This document shows, one piece after another, positions 1,093 through 19,671 of a stretch of 22,855 nucleotides of DNA; the stretch's first letter is position 1, and each line of letters starts with the position of its first letter. The translations under genes were made by a program, and so were the position numbers. Origin of the DNA: a virus; IMG/VR virus record IMGVR_UViG_3300043398_000032, positions 1 through 22,855 of that record; one strand, written 5' to 3'. A model generated the notes under the pieces. It was not told the DNA's origin, ran no database searches, and saw only the letters and a program-made list of their open reading frames with translations.

Positions 1093-2426
1093 TGCTTAAG
1101 ATATCTAGAGATTACGTTAATAAAGACTTTATTCAAGAGTTTCCAGTTGCAGATAGGTTTGTTAAACTACCTGTAGATAGCTACTTGAAATTATTACCAT
1201 CCAAAGACCCTGATACGGGCCAGGTGTGTACAGTCTATGATACTATTAATAGACCCCAAATCGCGCTAATCAACGCAATTAATGATCCTCGTCATAGGTT
1301 CGTTTGTGCAGCACTGTCACGGCGACTAGGTAAGACATATATTGCTAACATTATAGGCCAACTTATTACTCTAGAACCTGGTTCAAATGTACTAATTATA
1401 TCGCCTAACTATAATCTTAGTTCTATTTCGTTTGAACTGCAGCGTACTTTAATCCGTACATTTGATTTAGAAATAGCACGAGATAACTTGAAAGATCGTA
1501 TTATTGAACTATCTAATGGTTCTACTATACGCATGGGTTCTCTGTCAACTGTAGACTCCTGTGTAGGCAGATCCTATAGATTGATTCTATTTGATGAGGC
1601 TGCCCTAGGTAATGGTAAAGAAGCTTTTAACGTTGCTTTACGGCCTACGCTAGATACTGCTAATTCAAAGGCTGTATTTATTTCAACACCTCGTGGACGT
1701 GCAAACTGGTTTTCAGAGTTTTTTGACCGCGGATTTAGTTCAGAGTTTCCTGAGTGGTGCTCCATACAAGCAACATACCACGAGAATCCTAGAATGAAGG
1801 AAAAGGACGTTGAAGAAGCTAAACGCTCTATGAGTGCACAAGAATTTGATCAAGAGTACCTTGCATCCTTTAGCGTATTTGAGGGTCAGATATACCAGTT
1901 GAATCCTTTAGACATTGTTGATTTTACTGTCTGTGATAGACAGGAAGCATTTGCTGGGTTAGACCCTGGGTATAAAGACCCTACTGCTTTCGTAGTAATT
2001 GTATACGATATTGGGGCTGACGTATTCTGGATTGTGGACGAGTATTTAGAGAATCAAGCTACTACAGCTGCACATGCAGCGCGTATCAAAGAGCTAAACG
2101 CTAAATGGGGTGTAGATATTGTTTTTATCGACTCTGCTGCAGCTCAGTTTTCTGCTGACTTAGCTTATGAGCATGATATTGCTACGTCTAAAAGTAAGAA
2201 AGATGTACTACCTGGTATTGCTTACGTACAGAACTTATTGCACCAGCGCCGCATACGTGTAGCGCCTCATTGTAAGCATGTTTTAGATATGTTTGACCAG
2301 TATAGGTGGGACCCTGGTACATCTAATAAAGCCAGAGCTACTCTTAATACTGAGAAGCCTTTGCACGATGCTTACTCACACATGGCTGATGCTATACGGT
2401 ACGCTCTTTATACTTATACAGTATAA
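1092..2426 (+). CDS. terL: Terminase large subunit (packaging ATPase and nuclease)
   Basis: A 444-residue TerL of normal length that would pump DNA through the portal and cut concatemers. The N-terminal ATPase has a Walker A-like SRRLGKT at residues 76-82, Walker B LILFDEA at 164-170 and the coupling motif ISTPRG at 197-202. The C-terminal RNase H-like nuclease shows three metal-binding acidic positions: D291 in GLDPG, D347 in FIDSA and D433 in SHMADAIRY. All expected motifs are present and in order. The start overlaps the terS stop by one base. Its last 13 bp overlap the convergent GIY-YIG gene, and both proteins end in YTV encoded by the same small palindrome. A plus-strand terminator lies 72 bp past the stop. 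Confidence 0.95.
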   Translation: MLKISRDYVNKDFIQEFPVADRFVKLPVDSYLKLLPSKDPDTGQVCTVYDTINRPQIALINAINDPRHRFVCAALSRRLGKTYIANIIGQLITLEPGSNVLIISPNYNLSSISFELQRTLIRTFDLEIARDNLKDRIIELSNGSTIRMGSLSTVDSCVGRSYRLILFDEAALGNGKEAFNVALRPTLDTANSKAVFISTPRGRANWFSEFFDRGFSSEFPEWCSIQATYHENPRMKEKDVEEAKRSMSAQEFDQEYLASFSVFEGQIYQLNPLDIVDFTVCDRQEAFAGLDPGYKDPTAFVVIVYDIGADVFWIVDEYLENQATTAAHAARIKELNAKWGVDIVFIDSAAAQFSADLAYEHDIATSKSKKDVLPGIAYVQNLLHQRRIRVAPHCKHVLDMFDQYRWDPGTSNKARATLNTEKPLHDAYSHMADAIRYALYTYTV

Positions 2427-2986
2427 AACATCTTTCTCCACCACGGAAGTTTGGTAAAATGATCTACAGTCTTTTCTAGCTTTAAGGTTTTCGCTTCAAG
2501 CCCCTGCACGTACTCTTGTAGTTCGACAGGGGCTTTTTCTTTGGCTACTTGTAAAATGCGCTCTGAGAATGTATTCTTTTCTGCTTTAAGTTTATCAAGT
2601 TGAATATCTGAGACGTATATCTTAGCTTTAAGGCTAGCTACTTTATTAATAATTGCTGGAACGGAACTGTTCAATAGCTCAGGAGTTAACTGGTCTTTTA
2701 CCTCTCTTAATGCATCTTTATACGTATTAGGTACAACCGTATTTAATTCAGGAGAAAGTGCATCAATGTATAGTGCCTCCATCCAATCGAGATGGTTCGG
2801 GTGACAATCTGCTAGTACATAAAAAGAAGGTAAGCCGTAATAATCATATTCTTGCTGAATAAGCTTAGTATGTTTACCTGTTTGCATCTTTTTAATATGC
2901 TGCTCTCTACGTGCCGACATATCTACAGCTTGCCCGATATATCTTTTGCCTGAATCGAATTTGTATAAATAAATGCCTGAGTTCAT
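2414..2986 (-). CDS. GIY-YIG homing endonuclease
   Basis: A 190-residue protein with a clear N-terminal GIY-YIG nuclease domain: GIY at residues 4-6, KRYIG at 14-18, the arginine-rich SARREQH at 25-30, and a candidate metal-binding glutamate E70 in WMEALYIDALSPELN. Residues about 105-175 are lysine/glutamate-rich helix likely to be coiled coil, and the C-terminus is LPWWRKMFYTV. I see no recognised DNA-binding module such as NUMOD, so specificity may come from the helical tail. The start overlaps the stop of the upstream minus-strand gene as ATGA (2983-2986). It has no good ribosome binding site of its own, so it depends on translational coupling. Its 3' end overlaps terL by 13 bp. It could be a mobility nuclease or could restrict competing phages. 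Confidence 0.88.
   Translation of the reverse strand: MNSGIYLYKFDSGKRYIGQAVDMSARREQHIKKMQTGKHTKLIQQEYDYYGLPSFYVLADCHPNHLDWMEALYIDALSPELNTVVPNTYKDALREVKDQLTPELLNSSVPAIINKVASLKAKIYVSDIQLDKLKAEKNTFSERILQVAKEKAPVELQEYVQGLEAKTLKLEKTVDHFTKLPWWRKMFYTV
2498..2538 (+). terminator. Rho-independent terminator after terL, inside the antisense GIY-YIG gene
   Basis: AAGCCCCTG (2498-2506) pairs with CAGGGGCTT (2527-2535) as a 9-bp GC-rich stem with a 20-nt loop, ending in TTTTT (2534-2538). Read on the plus strand it ends the terminase transcript. The same bases encode the segment around VELQEYVQG of the minus-strand endonuclease. The loop is long, which lowers the score somewhat. Confidence 0.7.
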
Positions 2987-4398
2987 TTTAGTACGTACAC
3001 CAAGTTGCCTGCATCATAGGTTTTAATATATCCTGCGAGATTCATAATTTCTGCCTCTGATAATTCGTCGTTATAAAATTTTGGAAACATTGTTTTTAGT
3101 TTTGCTTTCTGACATTGGTACCTACTTAAGTACCTTCCGCTTTTACTATAAGAATAGCCTGGTGGGCTAGTGTGGCTCAGTGTAAAGCCTAACTTTATAT
3201 ATAGATTACCGTCTGAGAACCTACGGTCAGCGTATGTTACTATGTCTTTACGCCCAAATGCTTTCAACAGTTTAGATGCGCCGCCAACAACTGTGGTACC
3301 TAATAAGGAACAATACCTAACTAGCTCGTACTCATGGTTAACTGTAAACCTAGGCGTAGAAAACGTCATAACTGCAACAAGCTCATCCTTTAGAAATAGC
3401 CCGTAGTTATATTTCGATGCCGACCCAGCGCCTTGAAGATGGTTAGTTTCTAGGAACTCTCTAGGGAACGGAATTTCTCTAAGTGTCGTATTACGCGCGT
3501 AAATCTTTCTAGACTGCCCTAGTTGTTGTTTAATACGACTTTCTACGATCTCACGTTTGGTCATCCAGTACTTTTCATCTATATGTAACAATCTGAAGCC
3601 GAAGGCTTCAACCTTGTTGGTCTTATCAATATGGTACGTACTCTCCACCTTAGCGTCGCTGTGCCAGTATGAGCCATTATACTCAATTGCTAACCCTCGA
3701 TCTGGTAAAACTATATCTAACTCTTTGCCGTCTAAGATACTTCTATCATTAAACTCAATCCATTCACCTTGGCAGTTAGCTAGTATAAAATCTCTAAGTT
3801 CCCTTTCCTGATTACTAGTTTTAGGTGCGCAGGTAGAGCAGCGGTACATACGCTTATGTACAACATTACTGTACCAAATAACTGTTGTATGCCCACAACG
3901 GCTATCTTCAACTATAAATGGGGTACTCGTATCTACATATTCCTTTATCGTTAAATATTCCGGTAGTTTAGATTGCACGTCATTTACACTCAAGGATGGT
4001 TTTTTAGGCACGCAGTCATTACAGGTACGGTCCCTTTCTCTGGTTAATACATTTGTAGCAATTGATTTCCATACACTATTATGCTTAAGACATTTCAGTG
4101 TTACGTAATTACTGGCACCAGTATATTCGTCAATAATCTCAATATTTGGAGCTAGTGCCTTAACTTCTTCTTTGAACTTGCCGGCTGTTTTCTTTTTTAT
4201 TACTTTGTAGATGCCATTAATTAACTCAGTTTCCTTACCTGCGCATACCGGACACTTTTTGCCAGTACCTTTATGGTTTAGGTTACTAGGAAGTACTTCC
4301 CACGTATGGTCTTTAATGCACGAAACCTGCACGGATACTTTTGCAGAGGTATATTGGCCAGTTAGCACAATATCACTATCTTCAGGTATTTTTAACAT
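2983..4398 (-). CDS. Vsr/EDxHD-like homing endonuclease with zinc-binding repeats and Hef-like C-terminal domain
   Basis: A 471-residue protein in three parts. Residues 1-190 hold three treble-clef-like zinc units: C27/H31 with C49-x2-C52, C103/H106 with C126-x2-C129, and C168/H170 with C187-x2-C190. Residues about 195-290 match the Vsr-like (EDxHD, I-Bth0305I type) nuclease core: NQERELRDFI, KELDIVLPD with D228, AIEYNGSYWHSD with E239 and H246, and FRLLHIDE. Residues about 300-471 match a domain I know from Hef-like homing proteins of T4-type phages, with LKDELVAVMTF, YELVRYCS, VVGGASKLLKAF and YADRRFSDGNLYIKLGF. The zinc units probably bind DNA. The start has a strong AAAGGAA on the minus strand at 4403-4409, and the gene has its own promoter. 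Family recognition is from memory of motifs. Confidence 0.85.
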   Translation of the reverse strand: MLKIPEDSDIVLTGQYTSAKVSVQVSCIKDHTWEVLPSNLNHKGTGKKCPVCAGKETELINGIYKVIKKKTAGKFKEEVKALAPNIEIIDEYTGASNYVTLKCLKHNSVWKSIATNVLTRERDRTCNDCVPKKPSLSVNDVQSKLPEYLTIKEYVDTSTPFIVEDSRCGHTTVIWYSNVVHKRMYRCSTCAPKTSNQERELRDFILANCQGEWIEFNDRSILDGKELDIVLPDRGLAIEYNGSYWHSDAKVESTYHIDKTNKVEAFGFRLLHIDEKYWMTKREIVESRIKQQLGQSRKIYARNTTLREIPFPREFLETNHLQGAGSASKYNYGLFLKDELVAVMTFSTPRFTVNHEYELVRYCSLLGTTVVGGASKLLKAFGRKDIVTYADRRFSDGNLYIKLGFTLSHTSPPGYSYSKSGRYLSRYQCQKAKLKTMFPKFYNDELSEAEIMNLAGYIKTYDAGNLVYVLK

Positions 4399-4576: not shown

Positions 4577-5008
4577 ATGGCTATAAATACTAATAAACGA
4601 CTAGCTATTAAATGGGTCAGAGACTTAGCTAAATCCGCATATGAAAAGAAGAACTCATGCTATATTTGTGGAACTGAGCATGAATTAGAACTGCATCATT
4701 TTCATAGTCTTACATTAATGTTTGATAAATGGGCCAGGCAGCATTCATATGACATTACAACAGATGAAGGCGTACTAGCTGTTAGAGAGCAGTTTATTGA
4801 TGAGCATACTGTAGAGTTATATGATAAAGTAAGAACCTTGTGTAATAGACACCATGTTTTGCTACATAAAATATACGGTAAAGCACCTGCACTAGGTACT
4901 GAAGCTGCTCAAGAACGTTGGGTAGAGATTCAAAAATCCAAGCACGAAACCGGAGAATCTAAGATACCTGATACATCGCAGGGTTCCTTCTTTAGTGCAT
5001 TTATATAA
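4577..5008 (+). CDS. HNH endonuclease
   Basis: A 143-residue protein with an HNH/treble-clef signature: C28-x2-C31 (CYICG), ELELHHFH with H40, H41 and H43, then LCNRHHVLLH with C89, N90, H92, H93 and H97. The C-terminal 30 residues look flexible and end in SFFSAFI. HNH proteins encoded beside terminase and portal genes, HK97 gp74 being the known case, assist terminase in cutting DNA, which fits its place at the head of the portal operon. The alternative is a third homing endonuclease belonging to the neighbouring cassette. The start has no clear Shine-Dalgarno sequence, unlike its neighbours, so translation may be low. The portal gene starts 8 bp after its stop. Confidence 0.8.
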   Translation: MAINTNKRLAIKWVRDLAKSAYEKKNSCYICGTEHELELHHFHSLTLMFDKWARQHSYDITTDEGVLAVREQFIDEHTVELYDKVRTLCNRHHVLLHKIYGKAPALGTEAAQERWVEIQKSKHETGESKIPDTSQGSFFSAFI

Positions 5009-6197: not shown

Positions 6198-8117
6198 ATG
6201 TTAGATAAGTCAAAAATCTTATATCTAGATACTGTTTTTTCTAAAGAGCTTGCCACCGATGCAGAAGGCAACATTGAATCAATCATTGTTGAAGGATATG
6301 CAAGTACTAATGATATTGACCGAGCAGGTGATGTAGTTAGTGCCACGGTATGGGAGAAGGGTCTAGAGAACTATCTTAAAAACCCAATTATCTTAGCTTA
6401 TCATGACTATCATCAACCTGTTGGTCGGATGCTGGAACATAAAGTAGATAAAAAAGGTCTTTGGATTAAAGCACGTATCTCCTCAGCTGCTGAGGATGTT
6501 TACAACCTAGTAAAAGACAGTGTTATGACTGCGTTTAGTATTGGATTCCGTATCATAGATGCAGAATATAATCAAGCCGCAGAGGTCTTTTTAATCAAGG
6601 AAATTGAATTACATGAAATTTCAGTAGTTCCAGTACCTTGCAATCAAAACACATTGTTTAGTTTATCCAAGGCTTTTGATAGCGCCGAGGATTTTAATTC
6701 TTATAAACTGCTATTCGCACCAAAAGACAAGACAGCTAAAGAGCTGACGGCTCCCGCGAGTGGTGAAAGCAACCCAAAAAAGGAATGGAAAATGACTCCA
6801 GAAGAAATCCAGGCTCAAATTGAAGCCGCAGCTGTAAAAGCAGCAACCTCCGCCGTAGCCGCCGTTGAAGCTGCTCGTGTTAAAGCAGAAGCTGATGCTG
6901 CTGCAAAAGCCAAAGCCGACGCAGAATTTGATGCACGTATCAAAGCTGCTGTTCAAGTTGGCGAGAGCGGTGCTGAAAAGCTCGCAAAAGAACTAGAAAG
7001 CCGCATTGCTGGTCAGCAAAAATCTATTGATGATCTAATGAGCTCTCTAAAAGAGAAATCGGCAGAAATCGAAGCAATGCAAAAGAGCAAAATGTCTTTT
7101 GCTAACGGTTCTAGCGATGCCATCTCTTATGCTGAAAAAGAAGCAGCAGTTATGCTGAGTAAAATGTCCGGTAAGTCTATAGAGGCTACTAAACTAGGTC
7201 GCGCTCTAGTAGAGAAAATCGGCCCTCACCAGCCTGCTAGCGGTACCTGGGAACAAGAAGTAAGCAACCAAATGGAAGCTGAAGTTCGTCGTAAGCTAGT
7301 TGTATCACCTATTCTGCGTCAAGTTGCTATGCAGACTAACGTTATGACTATGCCTTTGAATCCTGAAGCAGGTTATGGCACATGGGTTACTAATGCACAA
7401 TTCGGTACTACCGCTAGCTCTGGTGCAACCCAAACCCATCAGTTATCCGAAATTACTCTGAATTGCTATAAATTAGCCACGCGCGAATATATGCAGTACG
7501 AAGAAGAAGAAGACTCTTTGATTGTATTGATGCCTATTGTTCGTGATGCAATGCTGCGTCGCGTAGCTAAGTCTGTTGACAAGGCTATGTTGTTGGGTGC
7601 TGGTGCTGGTGCAGATCCTGTTAAAGGTCTAGCTATTTACGACGCCTCTTCTGCTGTTACTTCTGCTGTTGCAAACAAGGCAACCGTTGCTAACATGATT
7701 GCACTGCGTCGTGACCTGGGTGCCTGGGGCCTAGACCCTTCAGAAGTTACTTTCGTTGTATCTACTGACATTTACTACGACCTACTAGAAGACGCAAGCT
7801 TCCAGACTGTTGATAAGATTGGTGATAAAGCCACTCTGTTGACAGGTCAAATTGGTTCTATTGCTAACAGCCCTGTGCTGGTAAGCGCCGAGATGCCTTC
7901 CAAGGCTGCTGGTACTGTCACTGGTACTAACAACATTGGTGCTATCGCTCTTAATACTCGCAACTTCATCGTTGGTAATCAACGTGGTCTGCGTATTGAT
8001 ACGCAAGAGTTGGTTGAGTCTCAACAGAAAGTACTGGTTGCCTCCCTGCGCACTGGTATGACACAGTTGACTACTAACCTGGGTGGTGCAGTTTCCACCT
8101 TCCGTTGGATAGCTTAA
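6198..8117 (+). CDS. Prohead protease-scaffold-major capsid protein fusion (HK97 type)
   Basis: A 639-residue single reading frame joins three head functions usually split between two or three genes. Residues 1-160 are an HK97-type prohead protease: AYHDYHQPVGR with candidate catalytic H69 or H72, MTAFSIGF with S114, and IELHEISVVPVPC. Residues 200-297 are alanine- and lysine-rich coiled coil, equivalent to the HK97 delta/scaffold region. Residues about 350-639 are the HK97-fold capsid protein, with EVRRKLVVSPILRQ, YEEEEDSLIVLMP and MLLGAGAGADPVKGL. Codons shift to CGT and CTG in the capsid part. AAGGA at 6188-6192 overlaps the portal stop. An internal start at 6792 could make scaffold-capsid without protease, and an A_AAA_AAG heptamer lies just before it. 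Self-cleavage is expected but no cleavage site can be assigned. Confidence 0.93.
   Translation: MLDKSKILYLDTVFSKELATDAEGNIESIIVEGYASTNDIDRAGDVVSATVWEKGLENYLKNPIILAYHDYHQPVGRMLEHKVDKKGLWIKARISSAAEDVYNLVKDSVMTAFSIGFRIIDAEYNQAAEVFLIKEIELHEISVVPVPCNQNTLFSLSKAFDSAEDFNSYKLLFAPKDKTAKELTAPASGESNPKKEWKMTPEEIQAQIEAAAVKAATSAVAAVEAARVKAEADAAAKAKADAEFDARIKAAVQVGESGAEKLAKELESRIAGQQKSIDDLMSSLKEKSAEIEAMQKSKMSFANGSSDAISYAEKEAAVMLSKMSGKSIEATKLGRALVEKIGPHQPASGTWEQEVSNQMEAEVRRKLVVSPILRQVAMQTNVMTMPLNPEAGYGTWVTNAQFGTTASSGATQTHQLSEITLNCYKLATREYMQYEEEEDSLIVLMPIVRDAMLRRVAKSVDKAMLLGAGAGADPVKGLAIYDASSAVTSAVANKATVANMIALRRDLGAWGLDPSEVTFVVSTDIYYDLLEDASFQTVDKIGDKATLLTGQIGSIANSPVLVSAEMPSKAAGTVTGTNNIGAIALNTRNFIVGNQRGLRIDTQELVESQQKVLVASLRTGMTQLTTNLGGAVSTFRWIA
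6776..6794 (+). promoter_or_regulatory. Candidate internal ribosome binding site and slippery heptamer in the capsid fusion gene
   Basis: In-frame ATG at 6792 (M199) is preceded by AAAGGAA (6779-6785), a Shine-Dalgarno match 6 nt away. It sits exactly at the protease-scaffold junction, giving a 441-residue scaffold-capsid protein. The overlapping heptamer A_AAA_AAG (6776-6782) is in the correct zero frame for -1 slippage. A -1 shift would reach a TGA at 6821-6823 and give a protease-only product of about 208 residues. Confidence 0.5.
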
Positions 8118-10506: not shown

Positions 10507-11646
10507 ATGTCATTTAATCTAATACGTAATAGCCGTGTTTTCTTCACGACTAACGTAGACACCCTCGGTATCGTACAGACTACTGGTCTGACCCCTACCA
10601 ATACTTTTGAAATTCAAGTACTAGACGGTTTTAGCTTCAGCCAAAATACTTCTAGCGAAACTGTAACCATTAATGAAGCCGGAGCTGCTCCTATCCGTGG
10701 CCAGCGTAGTTTTAATACTGCACTTGACCCCGTAGACTTCTCTATGTCCACGTACCTACGCCCACGCGTTGATACTACGACTATTACGGCTGAAGAGTGT
10801 GTACTATGGAATGCGCTTGGTGGCGTCGATGCAATCGGTGGAACCAACCCAGCATGGACTGACGGTAGTACTACTGGCCCCGTAGCTGCTCAGCTTGATT
10901 TTGCTGGCTCTAATGCTCACCAACTACAGAAATTCGGTTTGATTGTTATCGTAGATAGCAGCTGCTACCTTATTGATAACGCCGCCCTAGATACTGCTAC
11001 TCTTGACTTCGGTATCGACGCAATCGGTATGGTTGCTTGGGCTGGTAAGGGTACAGCAATGCGCCAGTTGGCTGGTGTAACTGCTACTGAAGGTGCAACA
11101 GTTACATTCGGTTCCGGCCTGACAGGTACCGGCAAAGGTAAGGTTACTACCGCACGTTACATTACTAATAAGTTATCTACTCTAGCTCTAGAAGCTAATA
11201 TTAGTGGTGGCGGTACAGCATACACGATCGCTATTACAGGTGGTAGCATTACTATCTCCAACAACCTTACGTACTTGACACCTGCTAACCTAGGTACTGT
11301 AAATCAGCCTATCGGTTACTTCACAGGTACGCGTTCTATCACTGGTTCAGTTACAGCTTACCTGCGTACTGGTGCCGGCTTATCCGCTAGCTTGTTATCT
11401 GATATGCTAGCTGCAGCTGCTTCTTCATCAGAAACCAAGTATAAAATGGTAGTTGCAATGGGTGGTTCTACAAACGCTAACCGTGTTGACTTGGTAATGA
11501 ATGGTGCTATGCTTACTATTCCTACCTTGACAACTGAGCAAGTTGTATCTACTACAATCAATTTCACAGCTCAACCATATACCGGTTCGAACTACGATTT
11601 GACTGCAACCAACGAATTGGTAGTAAAGTATTACGCTACTGCCTAA
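10507..11646 (+). CDS. Major tail tube protein
   Basis: A 379-residue protein resembling the long major tail proteins of T5-type siphoviruses (pb6-like), which stack as rings around the tape measure. Residues 1-120 contain FNLIRNSRVFFTTNV, INEAGAAPIRGQRSFNTALDPVDFSMSTYLRP and ITAEECVLWNALGG, a pattern I associate with that family. Residues about 225-379 are beta-rich and Thr/Gly-rich. It uses CGT, CTG and GGT codons more than its neighbours, in keeping with high expression, and has AAAAGGAA before ATG 10507. Two successive terminators follow. The tube fold is inferred from position between tail terminator and chaperones. Confidence 0.85.
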   Translation: MSFNLIRNSRVFFTTNVDTLGIVQTTGLTPTNTFEIQVLDGFSFSQNTSSETVTINEAGAAPIRGQRSFNTALDPVDFSMSTYLRPRVDTTTITAEECVLWNALGGVDAIGGTNPAWTDGSTTGPVAAQLDFAGSNAHQLQKFGLIVIVDSSCYLIDNAALDTATLDFGIDAIGMVAWAGKGTAMRQLAGVTATEGATVTFGSGLTGTGKGKVTTARYITNKLSTLALEANISGGGTAYTIAITGGSITISNNLTYLTPANLGTVNQPIGYFTGTRSITGSVTAYLRTGAGLSASLLSDMLAAAASSSETKYKMVVAMGGSTNANRVDLVMNGAMLTIPTLTTEQVVSTTINFTAQPYTGSNYDLTATNELVVKYYATA

Positions 11647-11735: not shown

Positions 11736-12140
11736 ATGGCCTCCATTAAAAACCTGCTGGTTCCTAGCAAAGAAATCTCCGTTGAATATCCCGGTCTGCC
11801 TGGCTTTGAGATTTCCATTTCTTTCCTGAGTCGTGAAACTCTGCAAAACATCCGTAAAAAAGCCACTAAGACTAGCTTTTCTCGTGGTAAAACTGTAGAA
11901 GAATTGAACGATGACCTATTCCTTAAGCTTTATGTTGAAGCTAGTATTAAGGGCTGGAAAGGTTTGACGCTCGCATATCTTGAGCAGCTTGCCCCCGTTG
12001 ACTTAGGTGACTCCGATTTGTCGGAAGAAGTAAAATACTCTGCCGAAGAAGCTCTAGACCTAATGAAGGCTAGCTCATCTTTTGACAGCTTTATTAGCGA
12101 GCAGGTAACAGACCTGGGAAACTTTTCGAAGAGCAAATAA
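11736..12140 (+). CDS. Tail assembly chaperone (lambda gpG-like)
   Basis: A 134-residue acidic-to-neutral protein just upstream of the tape measure gene, the place of lambda gene G, and smaller than its partner product made by frameshifting. It would coat the tape measure protein and help recruit tail tube subunits. Its sequence, from ASIKNLLVPSKEISVEY to SFISEQVTDLGNFSKSK, has beta then helical character. AAAGGA at 11725-11730 sets the start. A GGGAAAC slippery heptamer at 12116-12122, six codons before its stop, allows ribosomes to enter the -1 frame and make a 258-residue GT-type fusion. The function is inferred from position and this conserved frameshift layout. Confidence 0.85.
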   Translation: MASIKNLLVPSKEISVEYPGLPGFEISISFLSRETLQNIRKKATKTSFSRGKTVEELNDDLFLKLYVEASIKGWKGLTLAYLEQLAPVDLGDSDLSEEVKYSAEEALDLMKASSSFDSFISEQVTDLGNFSKSK

Positions 12141-12145
12141 GCTCT
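12116..12145 (+). promoter_or_regulatory. Programmed -1 frameshift site with downstream hairpin
   Basis: G_GGA_AAC (12116-12122) is in the zero frame of the upstream chaperone, as X_XXY_YYZ requires. Seven nucleotides later AGAGC (12130-12134) pairs with GCTCT (12141-12145) around a 6-nt loop that contains the zero-frame stop. The -1 frame is open from 12098 to 12511. Lambda uses GGGAAAG at the equivalent place. Confidence 0.85.
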
Positions 12146-12511
12146 ATAAAGGAAAAGATAAAGCAGTACTTCGATAACTCGGATGTAGGTATGACACGCG
12201 AGCACTATTTTGAAATGTGCGAGATGCTAGGCTCTACGCCAATCGAATCTGAAATCCCTCTAGAATTGGGGGATTTTCCTAGTTTTGTACAGTCCGTATT
12301 TCAGATATACTTTATGCTACGCGATATTTGGGAACCAATGTCAGGAGCATACATGGGTAAAGACCTATCTTGTATTTTTGATTTCTTCGGGTTGTACGAC
12401 TTTGAAAAAGAAGAACAACTGCTAGCCCTTACATTACTGCAACATATGGACCACTTTAGGTCTAAGCTAATAGCAAGTAAAAAACCCGTAACAAAGCCTC
12501 CTGCTAAGTAA
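12122..12511 (+). CDS. Tail assembly chaperone, -1 frame T domain (gpGT-like fusion with 11736)
   Basis: This half is read mainly as the C-terminal part of a frameshift fusion: 129 residues from 11736 through codon 12120-12122, then 129 residues here, 258 in total. An ATG exists at 12191, but the frame is open and protein-like before it (LFEEQISSIKEKIK, then QYFDNSDVG), and no Shine-Dalgarno sequence precedes that ATG (GATGTAGGT only). So the frameshift reading is preferred. The domain contains TREHYFEMCEMLG, LELGDFPSFVQSVFQIYFMLRDIWEPMSG and LLALTLLQHMDHFRSKL, and ends in a basic, proline-containing tail. In lambda the T part binds tube subunits while the G part binds the tape measure. Its stop is inside the terminator at 12496. 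Confidence 0.85.
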   Translation, partial: LFEEQISSIKEKIKQYFDNSDVGMTREHYFEMCEMLGSTPIESEIPLELGDFPSFVQSVFQIYFMLRDIWEPMSGAYMGKDLSCIFDFFGLYDFEKEEQLLALTLLQHMDHFRSKLIASKKPVTKPPAK

Positions 12512-12528
12512 TAGCCGGAGGCTTTTTT
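12496..12528 (+). terminator. Terminator overlapping the chaperone stop codon
   Basis: GCCTCC (12496-12501) pairs with GGAGGC (12517-12522) and is followed by TTTTTT (12523-12528). The loop contains the stop codon of the GT reading frame, so a terminating ribosome would cover the 5' arm. Translation of GT may therefore influence termination. A new promoter begins within 25 bp. Confidence 0.82.
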
Positions 12529-12534
12529 ATTGGT

Positions 12535-12577
12535 AAAAATTTTTTGATTTGACAGGTAATACCCTATGTGTTATAAT
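12535..12577 (+). promoter_or_regulatory. Sigma-70 promoter P3 for the tape measure and tail-tip genes
   Basis: AAAAATTTTTT (12535-12545) is followed by TTGACA (12549-12554), a 17-bp spacer and TATAAT (12572-12577) with extended -10 TGT. The bases before the -10 (ATGTGTTATAAT) match P1 and P2 (ACGTGCTATAAT) at 10 of 12 positions. Transcription should start near 12584, about 50 nt before the tape measure ATG. Confidence 0.9.
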
Positions 12578-12611: not shown

Positions 12612-12634
12612 TGCACTAAGTGCAGGAGGTATTA
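12612..12634 (+). promoter_or_regulatory. Hairpin abutting the tape measure ribosome binding site
   Basis: TGCAC (12612-12616) pairs with GTGCA (12620-12624) with a TAA loop. The last paired A is the first base of the strong Shine-Dalgarno AGGAGGT (12624-12630), and ATG follows at 12634. The hairpin may stand the binding site clear of other structure, or slightly mask it. Confidence 0.5.
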
Positions 12635-15600
12635 TGGCTACTAGCGTAATAGCATCAAAAGTTAAAGTAACCGTTGAGACTCAAGGATTAGATACTGCTG
12701 TTCAGCAGTCTGAGAAGTTTCACGATAACTTAGTAAAAGGTAGTGCTGCTATTGCCTCTGCTTTTAAAAATACAGCTAAATCAGTAAGTAGCGTAGCAGC
12801 AGCTCTAAGCGAGGAAGTACCAGTATCCGCAAGAGCTAGAAAAGGTAGTAAAAAGAATACTACAGCAGACGAGTCAGATGATTATGGTGTATCACGAAGT
12901 CTGCGCCCTGGAGGCACTGGTGCCTCAGCCCGCGACTTTGCGAAGGAAGCTAGCGGTCTTGGTGGTTTAGTACGCTTGTACGCGACATACGCAGCTAACG
13001 TATTCGCAGTTGGTGCTGCTTACCGTGCGTTATCTAATGCCATGGATACTAGCAATATGGTTAGAGGCCTAGATCAGCTAGGTGCTGCATCTGGTATGGC
13101 TCTTGGTTCTTTAAGTCAGCAACTTGTTAAAGTTACCGATGGGGCTATCTCAATGCGGGAAGCCATGGAATCAGTAGCTAAGGCTAGTTCTAGTGGTATG
13201 TCTGCTAATAATATCCTTAGAATGGGTAAAATTGCTAAGCAAGCATCCCAAGCTCTAGGTGTAGACGTGTCCGATGCGGTAAATCGCTTAACACGGGGTA
13301 TTACAAAGCTAGAGCCCGAACTATTAGACGAATTGGGTATATTTACTAGAGTAGATAGTGCTGTAAAAGACTATGCAAAGTCAGTAGGTAAATCTACTTT
13401 AGCCATTACGGACTTTGAGAAACGCGCCGCATTCGCCAATGCCGTACTAGCTGAAGGCGAGAAAAAGTTTGGCGAAATTGATATGGAAACTAACCCATAC
13501 ACCAAACTACTTGCTAGTGTAAAAGACTTAGGGCAGAAGGGTTTAGAAATAATTAACAAAGTACTTAGCCCTCTAGTTAAGTTCCTATCAGAAAGCCCCA
13601 GTGCACTAGCTGTAGCGATTGGTGCTGTAGGTCTGGCTTTGGTTAAGCAAGCCCTACCTGCTTTCGGCCAGGTAAAACAGGCTCTGCAAGCGCAAGCAGA
13701 AATGTCTAAAGAACTGGCAATATCTAGAGTTGCAGATGCTAAAAAAGCAGCAGATGCCATTTCTCAAATTAATGCCGAGGCTATGGAACGTAGAACGACT
13801 CAGGCTGAAGAACACATTGGTGTACTGGATAAATTGAATAAAGCTAGGATTAAAGCAAGTCCTGCTCTTTCCAATCTAATGTCTACCGACCTTGTAGAAA
13901 CTGACCGCGCAGATATTGACAAAAAAATAGCGGATGCAAAAACAGAACGTATACGTCTTAGAAAAGCACTAGACTTTGAAATTAATAATAAGGGTGCCTG
14001 GTCAGACGAGTCTCGTATTATACAGCTAAGAGAAGAAATTCAGTTAAATAAAGACGTAGTTCAGGCAGCTCGCAATACATTTGATATGCATAAGAAGTGG
14101 GCTTCTGAAGACGAACGCATAGCGAAACAAACACTAACGCTTAAAGCTACAATGCGCTTAGCAGAACGTGCTGAACACGAAGCTCTTAAGCAAAGCATAG
14201 TATCTAATGCCGTATATAATAGCGGATTAATTGGCACTAGAGATGCTATAGGTTTAATGCGCGAAGAAATGGCTAAATCTGGTAAACAGTTTACTGCACT
14301 AGAAACTGTGTCCATGACTGCAAAGGCGTCTATGTTGGGGTTTGCTACCTCTGTAATGACTATAGCTTCAGCATTCGGTAACTTCCTTGGAGTTATTGGT
14401 TTAGTCGTAACAGCTTTCGGTATTCTAGATTCTCTACTATCTTCCGCCTCCGCTAATAAGGCTTTAGCAGAGTACTCCGAGTCGCTTGATCGTACAGAGA
14501 AAGCTGCAGATAACGTAGTAAAGACTATTGATCGTATGGCTAGGGTAAGCAAATACTCTACACAAGCACTCCAGGCACAGACTAACGCTACGTTAGAGGT
14601 AGTAGATAGCCTACATGAACTAGCAGTTAATGGGGCTAAGGCATACGAGGAAGTTAATAAACCAGGTTGGAATAACTTAACAAATCTATTTAAGTCTATA
14701 TTTAATAAAGATGTACGTTCTACATTTGGTAAAAACTTGTCAGACACCATAGTTACCTCAGTTGGGCAGTTATCAAAAGGCCCGGTAGCTACTAAGCTTA
14801 AAGAAGATATTGCCTCAATACTAGAACTTAAAAATCTAGATAACCTTGATTTATTTAGAGATAAAGTAGCAGCACTAGGTCTTGAGTCGGAAAAGATAAA
14901 ACTTATAGAAAAAGCATTCAAAGATAGCCATATGGCTGCAGGGATTGCTTCTGGTAAAGCTACGGATTTTGCCGAATCTTTGAAGAAAACTAAAGAGTCA
15001 TACCAGGAAGTAGGTAAGTCTTTTGAAAATAAAGACCCACTAACAAAATTTGCAACCGATTCTATAGGTAGCCTAGCTAAACTATCCGATATTTTAAAAG
15101 GCCCAATCCAGGAAAGTATATCTAGTTTAGCTACTACTTTAAATGATTTAAGCAGTGTTCCATTATTTGGCGGAGAAAAAAGCCGTGAATTAGCTGGATT
15201 TGCTGATGAAATGGCCGGCATCCAAAAGTCTGTGCAGGCAAATGTAACCGAACTTGATAGCTTAGAGAAAAAGCTAACTGCTGTACAGTCTAAGCTTAAA
15301 GCTGCTAAGGCGGACTCCGCAGCAAATACCGGCTTAGGTGGTAGAGCTTATGGTGCTTCTAGGTTTTCACCGGATGAGGAAAGTCCACTGGTATCGGAAG
15401 AAGCTAAGTTGCTAAGTGCTATTAAAGCAGCTAAAGCTACTGAAGCTAGTCTATTTGCGCAAGCTACTGGTATCTCAGTTAAAGTTGCAAGTAATATCAA
15501 TGAAGGTATGGCCAAAGGCGTAGACTTTGTAGCACTTAAATTAGAGTCTGCGCTCGCAAAAGGTTCTACCTCATTGTTACAGAAATTATACGCTGCATCA

Positions 15601-18600
15601 GATATTATTCCAGAACTTGCTGCTAAGCAATATGATTTAAAAATCCAAGAATTAGCACAGGAGCAAACGTACCTGCAGGCTCAGCTATCTTTAATCAAAG
15701 AAATGCGTATGAATAATGCGCTATTAGCTGTGGCTAACGCTGAGAAAGCTGTTGAAGCTCCTAATCGCACACCAGAGGCCAGAGAAAAAGCGTTACGCGA
15801 TTTATCAGAGGCTAATAAGTATAAGGAAAACCTAGATAAAGTATTTAAAGACCCTAGTAATGCCTTACGCGGTATTTCAGAAGAACTAAGGGCAGGTACT
15901 TCTGGTGTATCACAAGAACAGGTGAAGAACCTAACCGAAGTTGCCAATCAAATATCTGGTATCAATGTTAGTATGGCCGGTGTTTCTAGGCAAATACAAG
16001 ATATTAAAGTACTGGAAAAGCCACTAGATCTTCTTAATAGTACCTTTAAAAATATCGAATCTAACGTTATCACAACTCAACGTGACGCACTAGATTTAAA
16101 AGATAAACAGCTTAAATTAGATAAAGAGTCCGGTCGCTATAGCGAGATGGAACTATTTACTAAAGACCTAGCTTTACAAAAAGAAAAGTCAGAACTACAG
16201 TATGCCCAAGAAGCCTTAGCTGCCAGAAAAGAGGACTTGAAGACTCAACTAATAGTTGAGGGTCTACGCTCTACAGCTAAGAAAGGGTCTGCTGGCGACG
16301 TGCAACGTGCGGATGCTACAGCTCTAGAAATTGAAGGTAAGCGCCTATTCCAATCTAAACTAGATACTGCATCTAAAAAAGAAGCAGCAGATGCTCTTGC
16401 AAGACAATCTGCACTACAACTTGAACTGTATAATCAAGAAGGTCGTAGACTAACCCAGGCTCGTCTCATTGAGGATATCTACCAAGCTACTGAGGCTTCC
16501 ACCTATACTTATGTGGATGCACTAAATGACGTTAACGCTACGCGCATAACGCGCGAGCGTGAAATAGGTAGGCTAACTGATGAACAAGCCGCTAGACTTC
16601 TGTCTGATCTTGATCGCGAAAAAGCTGGTAGGGAATATATACTGTCTTTACGCGAGAAAGAACGTGCATTTATACGTGCACAGGAAGACTTAGACCGCAG
16701 ATTCGAGGCACCGAATGCTACTGCAGACGAGCGCGCCCGTATAGTAGCAGAAGGTGAGGCTAGAACTATAGCGTATAATGAAGAAGTAAAAAACATCAAT
16801 AATATACACAAGCTAAAGCTGCTAAAGATTGACGAAGCTCTTAACTATGAAATCAATGCACGTAAGCGTGAGATGGAAAAAACCATAGTAGAAGCACTAG
16901 TAACCGGCATGACCAAAGGTGGAAAAGAGGGGGCCCGTGTAGTAAGAGAATATCTTGCAAACGAGTTCCGTAGAGTTCTTACTATTCGTGTACAGGCAGA
17001 ACTTAGCAAAACCAAGGTTACTGATCTTGCTAATATTGGTGCTAATCTTGCAGGTAGTGTGCTGGGTGGCTTCAAAACGTACTCGCTAGGCAGTGGCCTA
17101 TCTGGTGGTCTTATGGATGCTGGTGCCGAACTGTTTAATGCCGGATTCCAAGACTTTGGAAACACTTTATTAGATGCAGGTAGTGCCCTTGGCGATTTCT
17201 CTGGAATGTTAGATACCGCAGGTACGGGTCTATCTGTGCTAGGTACAGCTATGCGTGGTGACTATGGTGCGGCTATTGGTGAAGGCTTAGGACTATTTCT
17301 AGGTGGGGGAAATCCTATAGCAGGTATGGTTGGTAAATTCCTCGGTTCTATGTTAGGTCTTACCGATGATTCTGGCACTTTACATACCGGTGGGGCTGCA
17401 TCTTATAGTGCAACCCAAGGTACTAGAACTGGGCGTTCAGTAATGAACGAATTAGACTTCGGTGTAGAGGTTAATGAATCAGCTCAGCAAGCCGCAGCAG
17501 GTCTAGCCCAGGGGCTAGTATCGCTGTTAGATAGTACGGCTGTTACATTTGGCAAAGAAGCAGGTTACTACGCAGCTACAGGTTTTGCAGACGATACGTC
17601 TAAAGATGGAGCATGGGGTGCATTAAGTATCAAGCTCGGCGAGAAGATGATCTTAGACTGGGGTAAAGGTGCAGATAAGTGGCCTGGTCGTGAGTTTGCA
17701 GATGGTGCTGAAGGTCAAAAAGAGTATTTAAATGCTATAGCTGTAGATACTAAGAAAGTACTTATGGATATGGATTTGCCTACCTGGGCAGATAATATTC
17801 TTAATGCGATCGGCGACTCACCAACTATCGAAATGCTCCAAGCAGCCATGAACCAGATATCTAAGCTAAATACGGTATTTGATACCTTTAGCGAAGCACT
17901 AGGCTGGTCTAGAGAATCGTTAGAAAAACTACTTGGACCTCTTGGCGGTGTGGATTCTGCCATTACTAAACTTGGCTTTTACTACGAGAACTTCTTTACT
18001 GATACTGAAAAGTTAAGTAGGGCTACAGAAAAGCTTGATGATAAGTTTGAAAAAATGGGCAAAGCTGTACCTAAGACTACGGAAGGTTTCCGCAGTCTGG
18101 TAGATGCGGCCCAGGCAGCAGGAGACGGGGCTTTAGTTAATAGTTTATTGGAAGTAGCTCCAGCATTTGTGCAAGTTACCAAAGCTATTAAAGAAGCTGC
18201 AGAAGCCGCCAGAGAAGCCGCTAGACTTATGAATGCCGCTTGGGCGGATGTGCTTGAAACCAGAGGAGTTGACTCTAGTAATTTCGCAGCACAGGCAGAC
18301 ATAAACGCAGCTTGGAAGCAATACCAAGAAACAGATAAATACGCACAAACAAGTCCAACTAACTTCAAGACCATAACGTTTGACGACTTTACTAAGAACT
18401 ATACTACTGAACAGCAGCAGTTAATCGCGCGTATCTTAAAAGGGTACGATACTCTTAATAAGTCATTGCTAAAAAATGCAGAGGCGGCCCTATCTACTTT
18501 GAAGAAATCTTTAGACGCACAAAAAGAAGTGTACAAAGAACAGTTAACAGTACAAGAAGGCTTAGTTACTAAGCTTAAAGGTATATTTGACTCGTTACAA

Positions 18601-19671
18601 GTACATATAGATGAGTTATACAGAAATGTAGTATCTACCTCCAATTTATCAATTATTGAAGGTAATAGATTAATTGATTCAGTAATCTCCACAAGAGTGC
18701 TCCCTGAATCTGATACCTTAATGAAAGCAGTAGAAGCTGCTAAATCAGGTACAGTTGATACAAATTATTCGTCACGATTCGATGCAGAAAGAGACAGACT
18801 TATCTTAGCAGGTAAGTTAACAGATATTCAAAGTATCGCCAAAACAGAGCTCACTGCTGCCGAACTACAGGTAAAGTACCTGAAAGACCAGATTGACCTG
18901 CTAGATAGGATATATCTGGAAAACGAACTCGCAGTGCAGACACTACAAGGTATTAACGAAAGCGTGCTGTCTGTGACAGATGCAGTCAATGCACTTAAAC
19001 AGGCAATGCTGGATGCGAAAGCACCGACAACGCCTACTACTAGTACAGCGGCTACAGGTGCTGGTTTTGTTATCGGAGGTACTAGTCCCGGAGCTAGTTT
19101 TGGACCTGGAGCCTCTACTAACCCAACAGATAACTATGCACCGGGACAGCGCGGCATCGGAGGTAACTACTTAGCCGAACACTATATGGGTAGCTATGGT
19201 AGTGTATTCAATGAAGTAGATAGTACTAAACAATCTCAATTAGAGGGTGTAGCTGCTATATTACAACCTTTTGATGGTACCGGCGACGTATACGGAGCTG
19301 CGATGGCTGTAAAAGAAGCTGGTGGTACTATGACGGACATTGCTTCGGTAATGGGGTATAGCTATCTAGACGTTTTTAATGCGTTAACTGAAGCAGGTGT
19401 GCCGCGCTTTGCAACTGGTGGTGATCACTTCGGGGGTGTACGCTTGGTAGGTGAAGAAGGCCCAGAGCTTGAATTTACCGGCCCTAGTCGGATACTTAAT
19501 AATAGACAAACTATGGATATGTTCCAAAATAATACAGGAGAGGAGATGCAGAAGATGAGGGAGGAGTTTACAAAGCTTACAGAAGCTCAACTTAAGCAAT
19601 CTCAAGAAATCTCTAGATTATTTAAGCGCTGGGACAGCGACGGGCTACCAAGTACCCGTGTGGAGGTTTAA
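12634..19671 (+). CDS. Tape measure protein
   Basis: At 2345 residues this is by far the largest protein here and has the tape measure pattern: long helical, Ala/Lys/Glu-rich coiled coil with a few hydrophobic segments. Hydrophobic stretches lie at about 108-133, 325-345 and 565-605 (with FGNFLGVIGLVVTAFGILDSLL), and a Gly-rich hydrophobic region at about 1470-1570. Residues about 1080-1430 are almost continuous charged helix. The C-terminus has the motif FATGGDHFGGVRLVGEEGPE at about 2257-2276, then FTGPSRILNNRQ, which I know from many tape measure proteins. Such proteins set tail length and are injected with DNA. At the often quoted 0.15 nm per residue the tail would be near 350 nm. No lysozyme or peptidase domain was recognised. 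AGGAGGT at 12624 sets the start. Confidence 0.95.
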   Translation: MATSVIASKVKVTVETQGLDTAVQQSEKFHDNLVKGSAAIASAFKNTAKSVSSVAAALSEEVPVSARARKGSKKNTTADESDDYGVSRSLRPGGTGASARDFAKEASGLGGLVRLYATYAANVFAVGAAYRALSNAMDTSNMVRGLDQLGAASGMALGSLSQQLVKVTDGAISMREAMESVAKASSSGMSANNILRMGKIAKQASQALGVDVSDAVNRLTRGITKLEPELLDELGIFTRVDSAVKDYAKSVGKSTLAITDFEKRAAFANAVLAEGEKKFGEIDMETNPYTKLLASVKDLGQKGLEIINKVLSPLVKFLSESPSALAVAIGAVGLALVKQALPAFGQVKQALQAQAEMSKELAISRVADAKKAADAISQINAEAMERRTTQAEEHIGVLDKLNKARIKASPALSNLMSTDLVETDRADIDKKIADAKTERIRLRKALDFEINNKGAWSDESRIIQLREEIQLNKDVVQAARNTFDMHKKWASEDERIAKQTLTLKATMRLAERAEHEALKQSIVSNAVYNSGLIGTRDAIGLMREEMAKSGKQFTALETVSMTAKASMLGFATSVMTIASAFGNFLGVIGLVVTAFGILDSLLSSASANKALAEYSESLDRTEKAADNVVKTIDRMARVSKYSTQALQAQTNATLEVVDSLHELAVNGAKAYEEVNKPGWNNLTNLFKSIFNKDVRSTFGKNLSDTIVTSVGQLSKGPVATKLKEDIASILELKNLDNLDLFRDKVAALGLESEKIKLIEKAFKDSHMAAGIASGKATDFAESLKKTKESYQEVGKSFENKDPLTKFATDSIGSLAKLSDILKGPIQESISSLATTLNDLSSVPLFGGEKSRELAGFADEMAGIQKSVQANVTELDSLEKKLTAVQSKLKAAKADSAANTGLGGRAYGASRFSPDEESPLVSEEAKLLSAIKAAKATEASLFAQATGISVKVASNINEGMAKGVDFVALKLESALAKGSTSLLQKLYAASDIIPELAAKQYDLKIQELAQEQTYLQAQLSLIKEMRMNNALLAVANAEKAVEAPNRTPEAREKALRDLSEANKYKENLDKVFKDPSNALRGISEELRAGTSGVSQEQVKNLTEVANQISGINVSMAGVSRQIQDIKVLEKPLDLLNSTFKNIESNVITTQRDALDLKDKQLKLDKESGRYSEMELFTKDLALQKEKSELQYAQEALAARKEDLKTQLIVEGLRSTAKKGSAGDVQRADATALEIEGKRLFQSKLDTASKKEAADALARQSALQLELYNQEGRRLTQARLIEDIYQATEASTYTYVDALNDVNATRITREREIGRLTDEQAARLLSDLDREKAGREYILSLREKERAFIRAQEDLDRRFEAPNATADERARIVAEGEARTIAYNEEVKNINNIHKLKLLKIDEALNYEINARKREMEKTIVEALVTGMTKGGKEGARVVREYLANEFRRVLTIRVQAELSKTKVTDLANIGANLAGSVLGGFKTYSLGSGLSGGLMDAGAELFNAGFQDFGNTLLDAGSALGDFSGMLDTAGTGLSVLGTAMRGDYGAAIGEGLGLFLGGGNPIAGMVGKFLGSMLGLTDDSGTLHTGGAASYSATQGTRTGRSVMNELDFGVEVNESAQQAAAGLAQGLVSLLDSTAVTFGKEAGYYAATGFADDTSKDGAWGALSIKLGEKMILDWGKGADKWPGREFADGAEGQKEYLNAIAVDTKKVLMDMDLPTWADNILNAIGDSPTIEMLQAAMNQISKLNTVFDTFSEALGWSRESLEKLLGPLGGVDSAITKLGFYYENFFTDTEKLSRATEKLDDKFEKMGKAVPKTTEGFRSLVDAAQAAGDGALVNSLLEVAPAFVQVTKAIKEAAEAAREAARLMNAAWADVLETRGVDSSNFAAQADINAAWKQYQETDKYAQTSPTNFKTITFDDFTKNYTTEQQQLIARILKGYDTLNKSLLKNAEAALSTLKKSLDAQKEVYKEQLTVQEGLVTKLKGIFDSLQVHIDELYRNVVSTSNLSIIEGNRLIDSVISTRVLPESDTLMKAVEAAKSGTVDTNYSSRFDAERDRLILAGKLTDIQSIAKTELTAAELQVKYLKDQIDLLDRIYLENELAVQTLQGINESVLSVTDAVNALKQAMLDAKAPTTPTTSTAATGAGFVIGGTSPGASFGPGASTNPTDNYAPGQRGIGGNYLAEHYMGSYGSVFNEVDSTKQSQLEGVAAILQPFDGTGDVYGAAMAVKEAGGTMTDIASVMGYSYLDVFNALTEAGVPRFATGGDHFGGVRLVGEEGPELEFTGPSRILNNRQTMDMFQNNTGEEMQKMREEFTKLTEAQLKQSQEISRLFKRWDSDGLPSTRVEV

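Follow-up and report, generated by a model that had tools for sequence, protein, structure and literature searches.

Predicted programmed -1 frameshifting in the tail chaperone genes of a distant T5 relative, and a probable change of shift direction around a single phenylalanine codon

In phage lambda, the tail assembly chaperones G and G-T are reportedly produced by a -1 ribosomal frameshift between two genes (work attributed to Levin in 1993 and to Xu, Hendrix and Duda in 2004). The locus described here lies in a 22,855-nt stretch of a metagenomic viral contig (the window) and shares the lambda layout: two overlapping genes just 5' of the tape measure gene, the second in the -1 frame relative to the first, a canonical slippery heptamer, and a short zero-frame tail past the site. 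It differs from lambda in having a heptamer that ends in C rather than G and a G and T of the T5/PHROG_313 type. In the passages of the relevant papers used here, GGGAAAC is given at the G/T junction of Caulobacter phage Colossus (PMC3556154), Burkholderia phage KL1 (PMC3483164), and the haloarchaeal virus HCTV-1 (PMC5009743). These three share the heptamer and the gene pair with the window, so the final C is no novelty, but they belong to other phage groups, and the same passages describe neither a conservation series nor a swap of sites. The T5-like (Demerecviridae) pair T5.143/T5.142 has homologous G (30 to 39% identity) and T, the same gene order, and the same hinge Phe codon as the window, but there T lies in the +1 frame with a TTT_CGN motif. 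The features of the window locus are as follows.

11736 to 12140, plus strand: gene G, tail assembly chaperone, 134 aa, the zero-frame product
12116 to 12122, plus strand: slippery heptamer G_GGA_AAC, from direct reading and conservation in relatives
12122 to 12511, plus strand: T part after the predicted -1 shift (129 aa), in a frame that opens at 12098
12123 to 12125, plus strand: hinge Phe codon TTT (F130 of G), the center of all three site types
12130 to 12145, plus strand: 5-bp hairpin AGAGC-AAATAA-GCTCT, present, not conserved, probably incidental
12191 to 12193, plus strand: first ATG in the T frame, probably not a genuine start
12634 to 19671, plus strand: putative tape measure protein, 2345 aa, directly after G-T; expected client of G/GT

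The window phage is distantly related to the T5-like phages. Identity between its terminase and those of Vibrio T5-like phages reaches 49%, and its genes run in the order terminase, portal, protease-capsid, connectors, tail terminator, major tail protein, G, T, and a 2345-aa ORF. A blastn search of the window against phage records returned no match, and protein searches were therefore used; neither a host nor a prophage was found in genome contigs. Homologs of G are present in 889 phage records, many of them T5-like, mostly at 30 to 39% identity. Both proteins belong to tail assembly chaperone families: G matches PHROG_313 (E = 1.5e-18) and, below threshold, Pfam Phage_TAC_5 (E = 1.8e-4), and the T part matches PHROG_3914 (E = 3.2e-14). 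PHROG_313 is a single 258-position profile; G matches its first half and T of T5-like phages matches positions 170 to 258, indicating that the family contains fused proteins. AlphaFold gave a T model (pLDDT 90) similar to tape measure chaperones in BFVD (E values down to 3e-8) and a G model of only moderate confidence (pLDDT 77). Sequence and fold searches of the PDB gave nothing significant, with no confident fold match for the G or T model.

The 2345-aa ORF has no Pfam match and is named tape measure from its length and its place in the gene order. It is about twice as long as the tape measure protein of T5-like phiR2-01 (1226 aa, 185-nm tail); by the rule of 1.5 Å per residue, it would correspond to a tail of roughly 350 nm. 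Between T and this gene, at 12549 to 12577, is a sequence that matches the sigma-70 consensus perfectly (TTGACA-17-TATAAT, the second hexamer preceded by TG), with a possible terminator just upstream of it (GCCTCC...GGAGGC followed by six T, about 12496 to 12528); the tape measure gene may be transcribed separately. Elsewhere in the window, the prohead protease and major capsid protein form one 639-aa ORF (6198 to 8117; Pfam S78 at residues 21 to 155 and Phage_capsid at 355 to 610), whereas T5-like Shivani has two genes. Two opposite-strand genes (2414 to 4398, minus) and a small gene with an HNH-like Cys/His pattern (4577 to 5008, plus) lie between terminase and portal. By eye, they resemble GIY-YIG- and HNH-like homing endonucleases, with Pfam matches that are below threshold or absent.

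The 3' end of G reads ...GAC CTG GGA AAC TTT TCG AAG AGC AAA TAA. In it, G12116 precedes the zero-frame codons GGA (12117 to 12119) and AAC (12120 to 12122), forming a canonical X_XXY_YYZ heptamer in the G frame near the end of the gene, with T in the -1 frame; the overlapping ORFs lie between the major tail protein gene (10507 to 11646) and the 2345-aa ORF. All coordinates and counts of the original prediction held on direct reading, as did its remark that the final C places tRNA-Asn rather than tRNA-Lys in the A site. The C may also alter the G:GT ratio, as that prediction proposed. A review gives A_AAC as less shift-prone than A_AAG in Escherichia coli (PMC5009743), which counts against the frameshift explanation insofar as the window's host behaves alike. 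GGGAAAC occurs once on the two strands of the window (1.4 expected), which by itself is unremarkable.

We consider that this locus is a lambda-type G/G-T tail chaperone pair expressed via programmed -1 ribosomal frameshifting, with a probability of roughly 0.93. The majority of ribosomes would produce only G (134 aa). In a minority, tRNA-Gly on GGA and tRNA-Asn on AAC would slip one base back to GGG AAA, and these ribosomes would continue through T. A -1 slip after AAC gives ...VTDLGN/LFEEQISSIK..., that is, 129 + 129 = 258 aa, and the peptide that crosses the hinge of the predicted fusion would be ...VTDLGNLFEEQISSIK. We infer both the shifting itself and its efficiency from sequence. By analogy with lambda, G may coat the tape measure protein and the T part may recruit the major tail protein.

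Relatives were gathered from viral contigs with several queries. Among 265 complete loci including the window, T was in the -1 frame in 251 and in the +1 frame in 14, and GGGAAAC was present in 231 of the 251 -1 loci. De-duplication at 95% nucleotide identity over ~360 nt left 128 -1 members, with the exact heptamer kept in 119 of them, a count that represents neither 119 independent events nor a probability, since these relatives share ancestry. Identity to the window falls as low as about 64% within its clade. GGA and AAC were each found at the site in 119 of the 128 members, always preceded by an NNG Leu codon (TTG or CTG), against baselines in the same genes of 21% for GGA, 33% for AAC, and 14.5% for TTG plus CTG; Leu-Gly-Asn would be coded NNG GGA AAC in 1.0% of cases. 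Other conserved residues vary in codon. Conservation of the site thus exceeds what the amino acids require.

The members that lack GGGAAAC still have T in the -1 frame, and all but one carry A_AAT_TTT one codon downstream, with GAA, GCA, or TCA as the codon before AAT TTT. The remaining one (L054) has G_AAT_TTT, a poor heptamer, which counts against the frameshift explanation. In the tree described below, some of the members without GGGAAAC branch within the clade that has it, and another five make up a deeper clade. The original prediction had held that loss of the heptamer from relatives with both genes kept would speak against it; what is seen instead is a swap to another -1 site with the same T frame.

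The T frame itself is open from CGA at 12098, just after TAG at 12095 to 12097, to TAA at 12509 to 12511. In the 128 members, the 23 codons past the hinge contain no stop in the T frame, whereas the remaining two frames have 285 and 276. From the G stop to the T ATG, the T frame is under purifying selection, with a pN/pS of 0.53 against 1.23 for each of the other frames (44 members). Gln5 of the T part, which precedes any ATG, is invariant in 31 aligned members, and in the AlphaFold model residues T2 to T21, located before the ATG, form one helix. The Shine-Dalgarno sequence of the ATG at 12191 is weak and badly spaced (-4.2 kcal/mol in the window; median of 0.2 over relatives), whereas that of the tape measure start is strong (-10.9 kcal/mol). 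Taken together, the open frame, selection, Gln5, the helix, and the poor Shine-Dalgarno sequence suggest that T is reached through G. These results agree with the earlier claims that the -1 frame reads as protein before the ATG and that a simple gene call at 12191 would drop 23 T codons; along with the conserved heptamer, they strongly support the 258-aa fusion.

Other explanations fit these data less well. If T were a separate gene started at 12191, by internal initiation or by reinitiation after the G stop, no fusion would be made; the first T-frame ATG does fall at T codon 23 in 75 of the 128 relatives, and most T5-like records are annotated as two genes. However, the position of the first ATG moves among relatives from T codon 11 to 42, or there is none, its Shine-Dalgarno sequence is weak or absent next to the strong one of the tape measure gene, and selection and the open frame extend upstream of it. 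In T5-like records, too, T is annotated with ATG, GTG, and TTG starts at positions between -9 and +48 codons relative to the hinge. A separate start also leaves the heptamer without explanation, and we regard this reading as very improbable. Less probable still is that the heptamer is kept for its protein product, Leu-Gly-Asn-Phe, with any shift incidental. Leu127, Asn129, and Phe130 are indeed invariant in the 31-member alignment, yet it is the synonymous bases that are fixed, with GGA and AAC in all 119 site-keeping members, whereas the conserved Asn N50 is coded AAT in 105 and AAC in 12 (a subset chosen by GGGAAAC). Moreover, where the site has moved to A_AAT_TTT, the third base of the Leu codon and the Gly are mostly released. 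Finally, the window is a single metagenomic contig, in which an assembly error or one-base mutation could change the frame; this is negligible as an explanation, with the same -1 offset shared by 251 complete loci, the window among them, from many assemblies. A programmed -1 shift at GGGAAAC therefore remains the preferred reading.

Candidate stimulators fared differently. The original prediction had described a 5-bp hairpin 7 nt downstream of the heptamer, and it is present as described (arms AGAGC, 12130 to 12134, and GCTCT, 12141 to 12145). As a stimulator it was rejected, since its pairs are not conserved: of the 119 GGGAAAC members, the window among them, one has all five. No excess structure was detected downstream of the site (mean z of -0.2 to -0.4) or upstream of it, RNAalifold found no structure in the relatives, and Rfam gave no match over the G-T region. 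On hairpin conservation, RNAalifold, and z, then, the locus does not belong with structure-stimulated -1 sites. An upstream inverted repeat noticed by eye (CAGGT/ACCTG) was also discarded, being broken in relatives by eye and lying in a 5' region without excess structure. Given that no conserved RNA structure was found, the level of shifting is probably set chiefly by the heptamer itself.

The original prediction, whose core -1 shift stands, missed a different arrangement in the T5-like relatives. In every T5-like record where T could be placed, its offset was +1; the host genera were Escherichia, Salmonella, Klebsiella, Pectobacterium, Pantoea, Serratia, Enterobacter, Providencia, Proteus, and Vibrio. 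All 24 +1 records (two of them viral contigs, with T5 represented by BF23, APCEc03, and Shivani) end G at TTT CGT or TTT CGA, with a variable codon before, and no T-frame stop occurs in 24 × 27 codons past the hinge. Most T starts annotated in these phages lack a Shine-Dalgarno sequence, and their positions spread from codon 9 before the hinge to codon 48 past it. The window, with TTT TCG and T in -1, falls outside this class. From sequence comparison, T5-like phages appear to shift +1 at the hinge. The site seems to be largely unrecognized: we found no paper in the open-access literature naming a UUU_CGN site for the T5-like G-T pair, and T5 and Sugarland, the latter described as "similar to T5," are said to have no predicted frameshift signal (PMC6256483), whereas Spivey (L272), of the same species as Sugarland, has ACT TTT CGT with T in +1. 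The fusion was evidently suspected earlier in the Shivani record, where G-T is a two-piece join of 832 nt encoding 277 aa; the DNA there is also ACT TTT CGT.

The same T frame is reached by +1 and by -2 shifting. Phage Mu uses a -2 frameshift, and the length of the Shivani join (832 nt, 277 aa) implies that two bases are re-read. We nevertheless consider -2 unlikely and infer +1, since re-pairing of tRNA-Phe from UUU to UUC needs exactly the bases that are fixed (TTT CGN in 24/24), while the pre-hinge bases needed for -2 vary (ACT, TCC, ACC, TCA, ACG, AAC, CAC, TTG). In addition, the T5-like site, though not that of the window, has a core identical to that (UUU_CGU) of the influenza A PA-X site UCC_UUU_CGU, which has been shown to be +1 (PMC3498833), and Pectobacterium phages My1 and DU_PP_V carry exactly TCC TTT CGT. 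The PA-X genes are unrelated to those of T5-like phages and are read by another type of ribosome.

Some further observations concern these relatives. The Vibrio T5-like phages (L087, L088, L089, L274, L277, and L278) have an extra gene of ~250 aa between T and the tape measure gene that is absent from the window and from the enterobacterial T5-like phages examined. In Aeromonas phages Akh-2 (L269) and AhSzq-1 (L270), whose hinge is TTT CGA with T in +1, in-frame TAG codons interrupt otherwise intact G and T genes, and the same is seen in a terminase gene (L280, on the contig of L009). Reading TAG as sense restores long frames, which suggests TAG recoding in Shenzhenvirus and in the nearest relative of the window. 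No tRNA gene was found in the scanned stretches of L009 and L280. The 16 predicted genes of the window (604 to 21943) end in 12 TAA, 4 TGA, and 0 TAG codons, compatible with either chance or TAG avoidance.

All site types meet at one codon. F130 is aligned and invariant across all clades and is TTT in 126 of 128 -1 members and 24 of 24 +1 records. The context is CTG GGA AAC TTT TCG in the window, TTA GAA AAT TTT ACA in the L253 group, GAC AAC TTT CGA in pVp-1, and GAC ACT TTT CGT in the T5 type; window and pVp-1 differ by one T at the run. G_GGA_AAC would thus act immediately 5' of the Phe codon (-1, window clade), A_AAT_TTT would include it (-1, deeper clade and some window-clade members), and TTT_CGN would begin at it (+1, T5-like phages). 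In a maximum-likelihood tree of 69 fusion proteins, hinge columns included, +1 versus -1 required one change of direction (support 100/99), and all site types required four changes. Midpoint rooting, one option for the root, would make +1 the older state. Two +1 sequences on long branches (L267 and L268) are themselves unsurely placed, and the mixed all-clade alignment was too divergent to serve as a scan seed. These data make it likely that, between the T5-like phages and their sister clade from metagenomes, one orthologous gene pair switched shift direction, with +1 at UUU_CGN in the former and -1 at A_AAU_UUU or G_GGA_AAC in the latter. With all three sites on one invariant Phe, a one-base change in length beside the hinge could flip the direction and keep the fusion.

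For the window, these results correct the gene call and supply a GGGAAAC site with a very deep conservation series. Taken alone, it is a new member of a well-known kind; greater interest attaches to the switch of direction within the family and to the likely +1 site of T5-like phages. Published annotation mostly misses this apparent +1 shift, and most T5-like records examined apparently start T at the wrong position. A standard laboratory group reported without the signal is suggested to have one. Shifts of -1 and +1 are generally regarded as distinct mechanisms; here homologous genes seem to have crossed between them around one codon, the need for two forms of the chaperone being retained.
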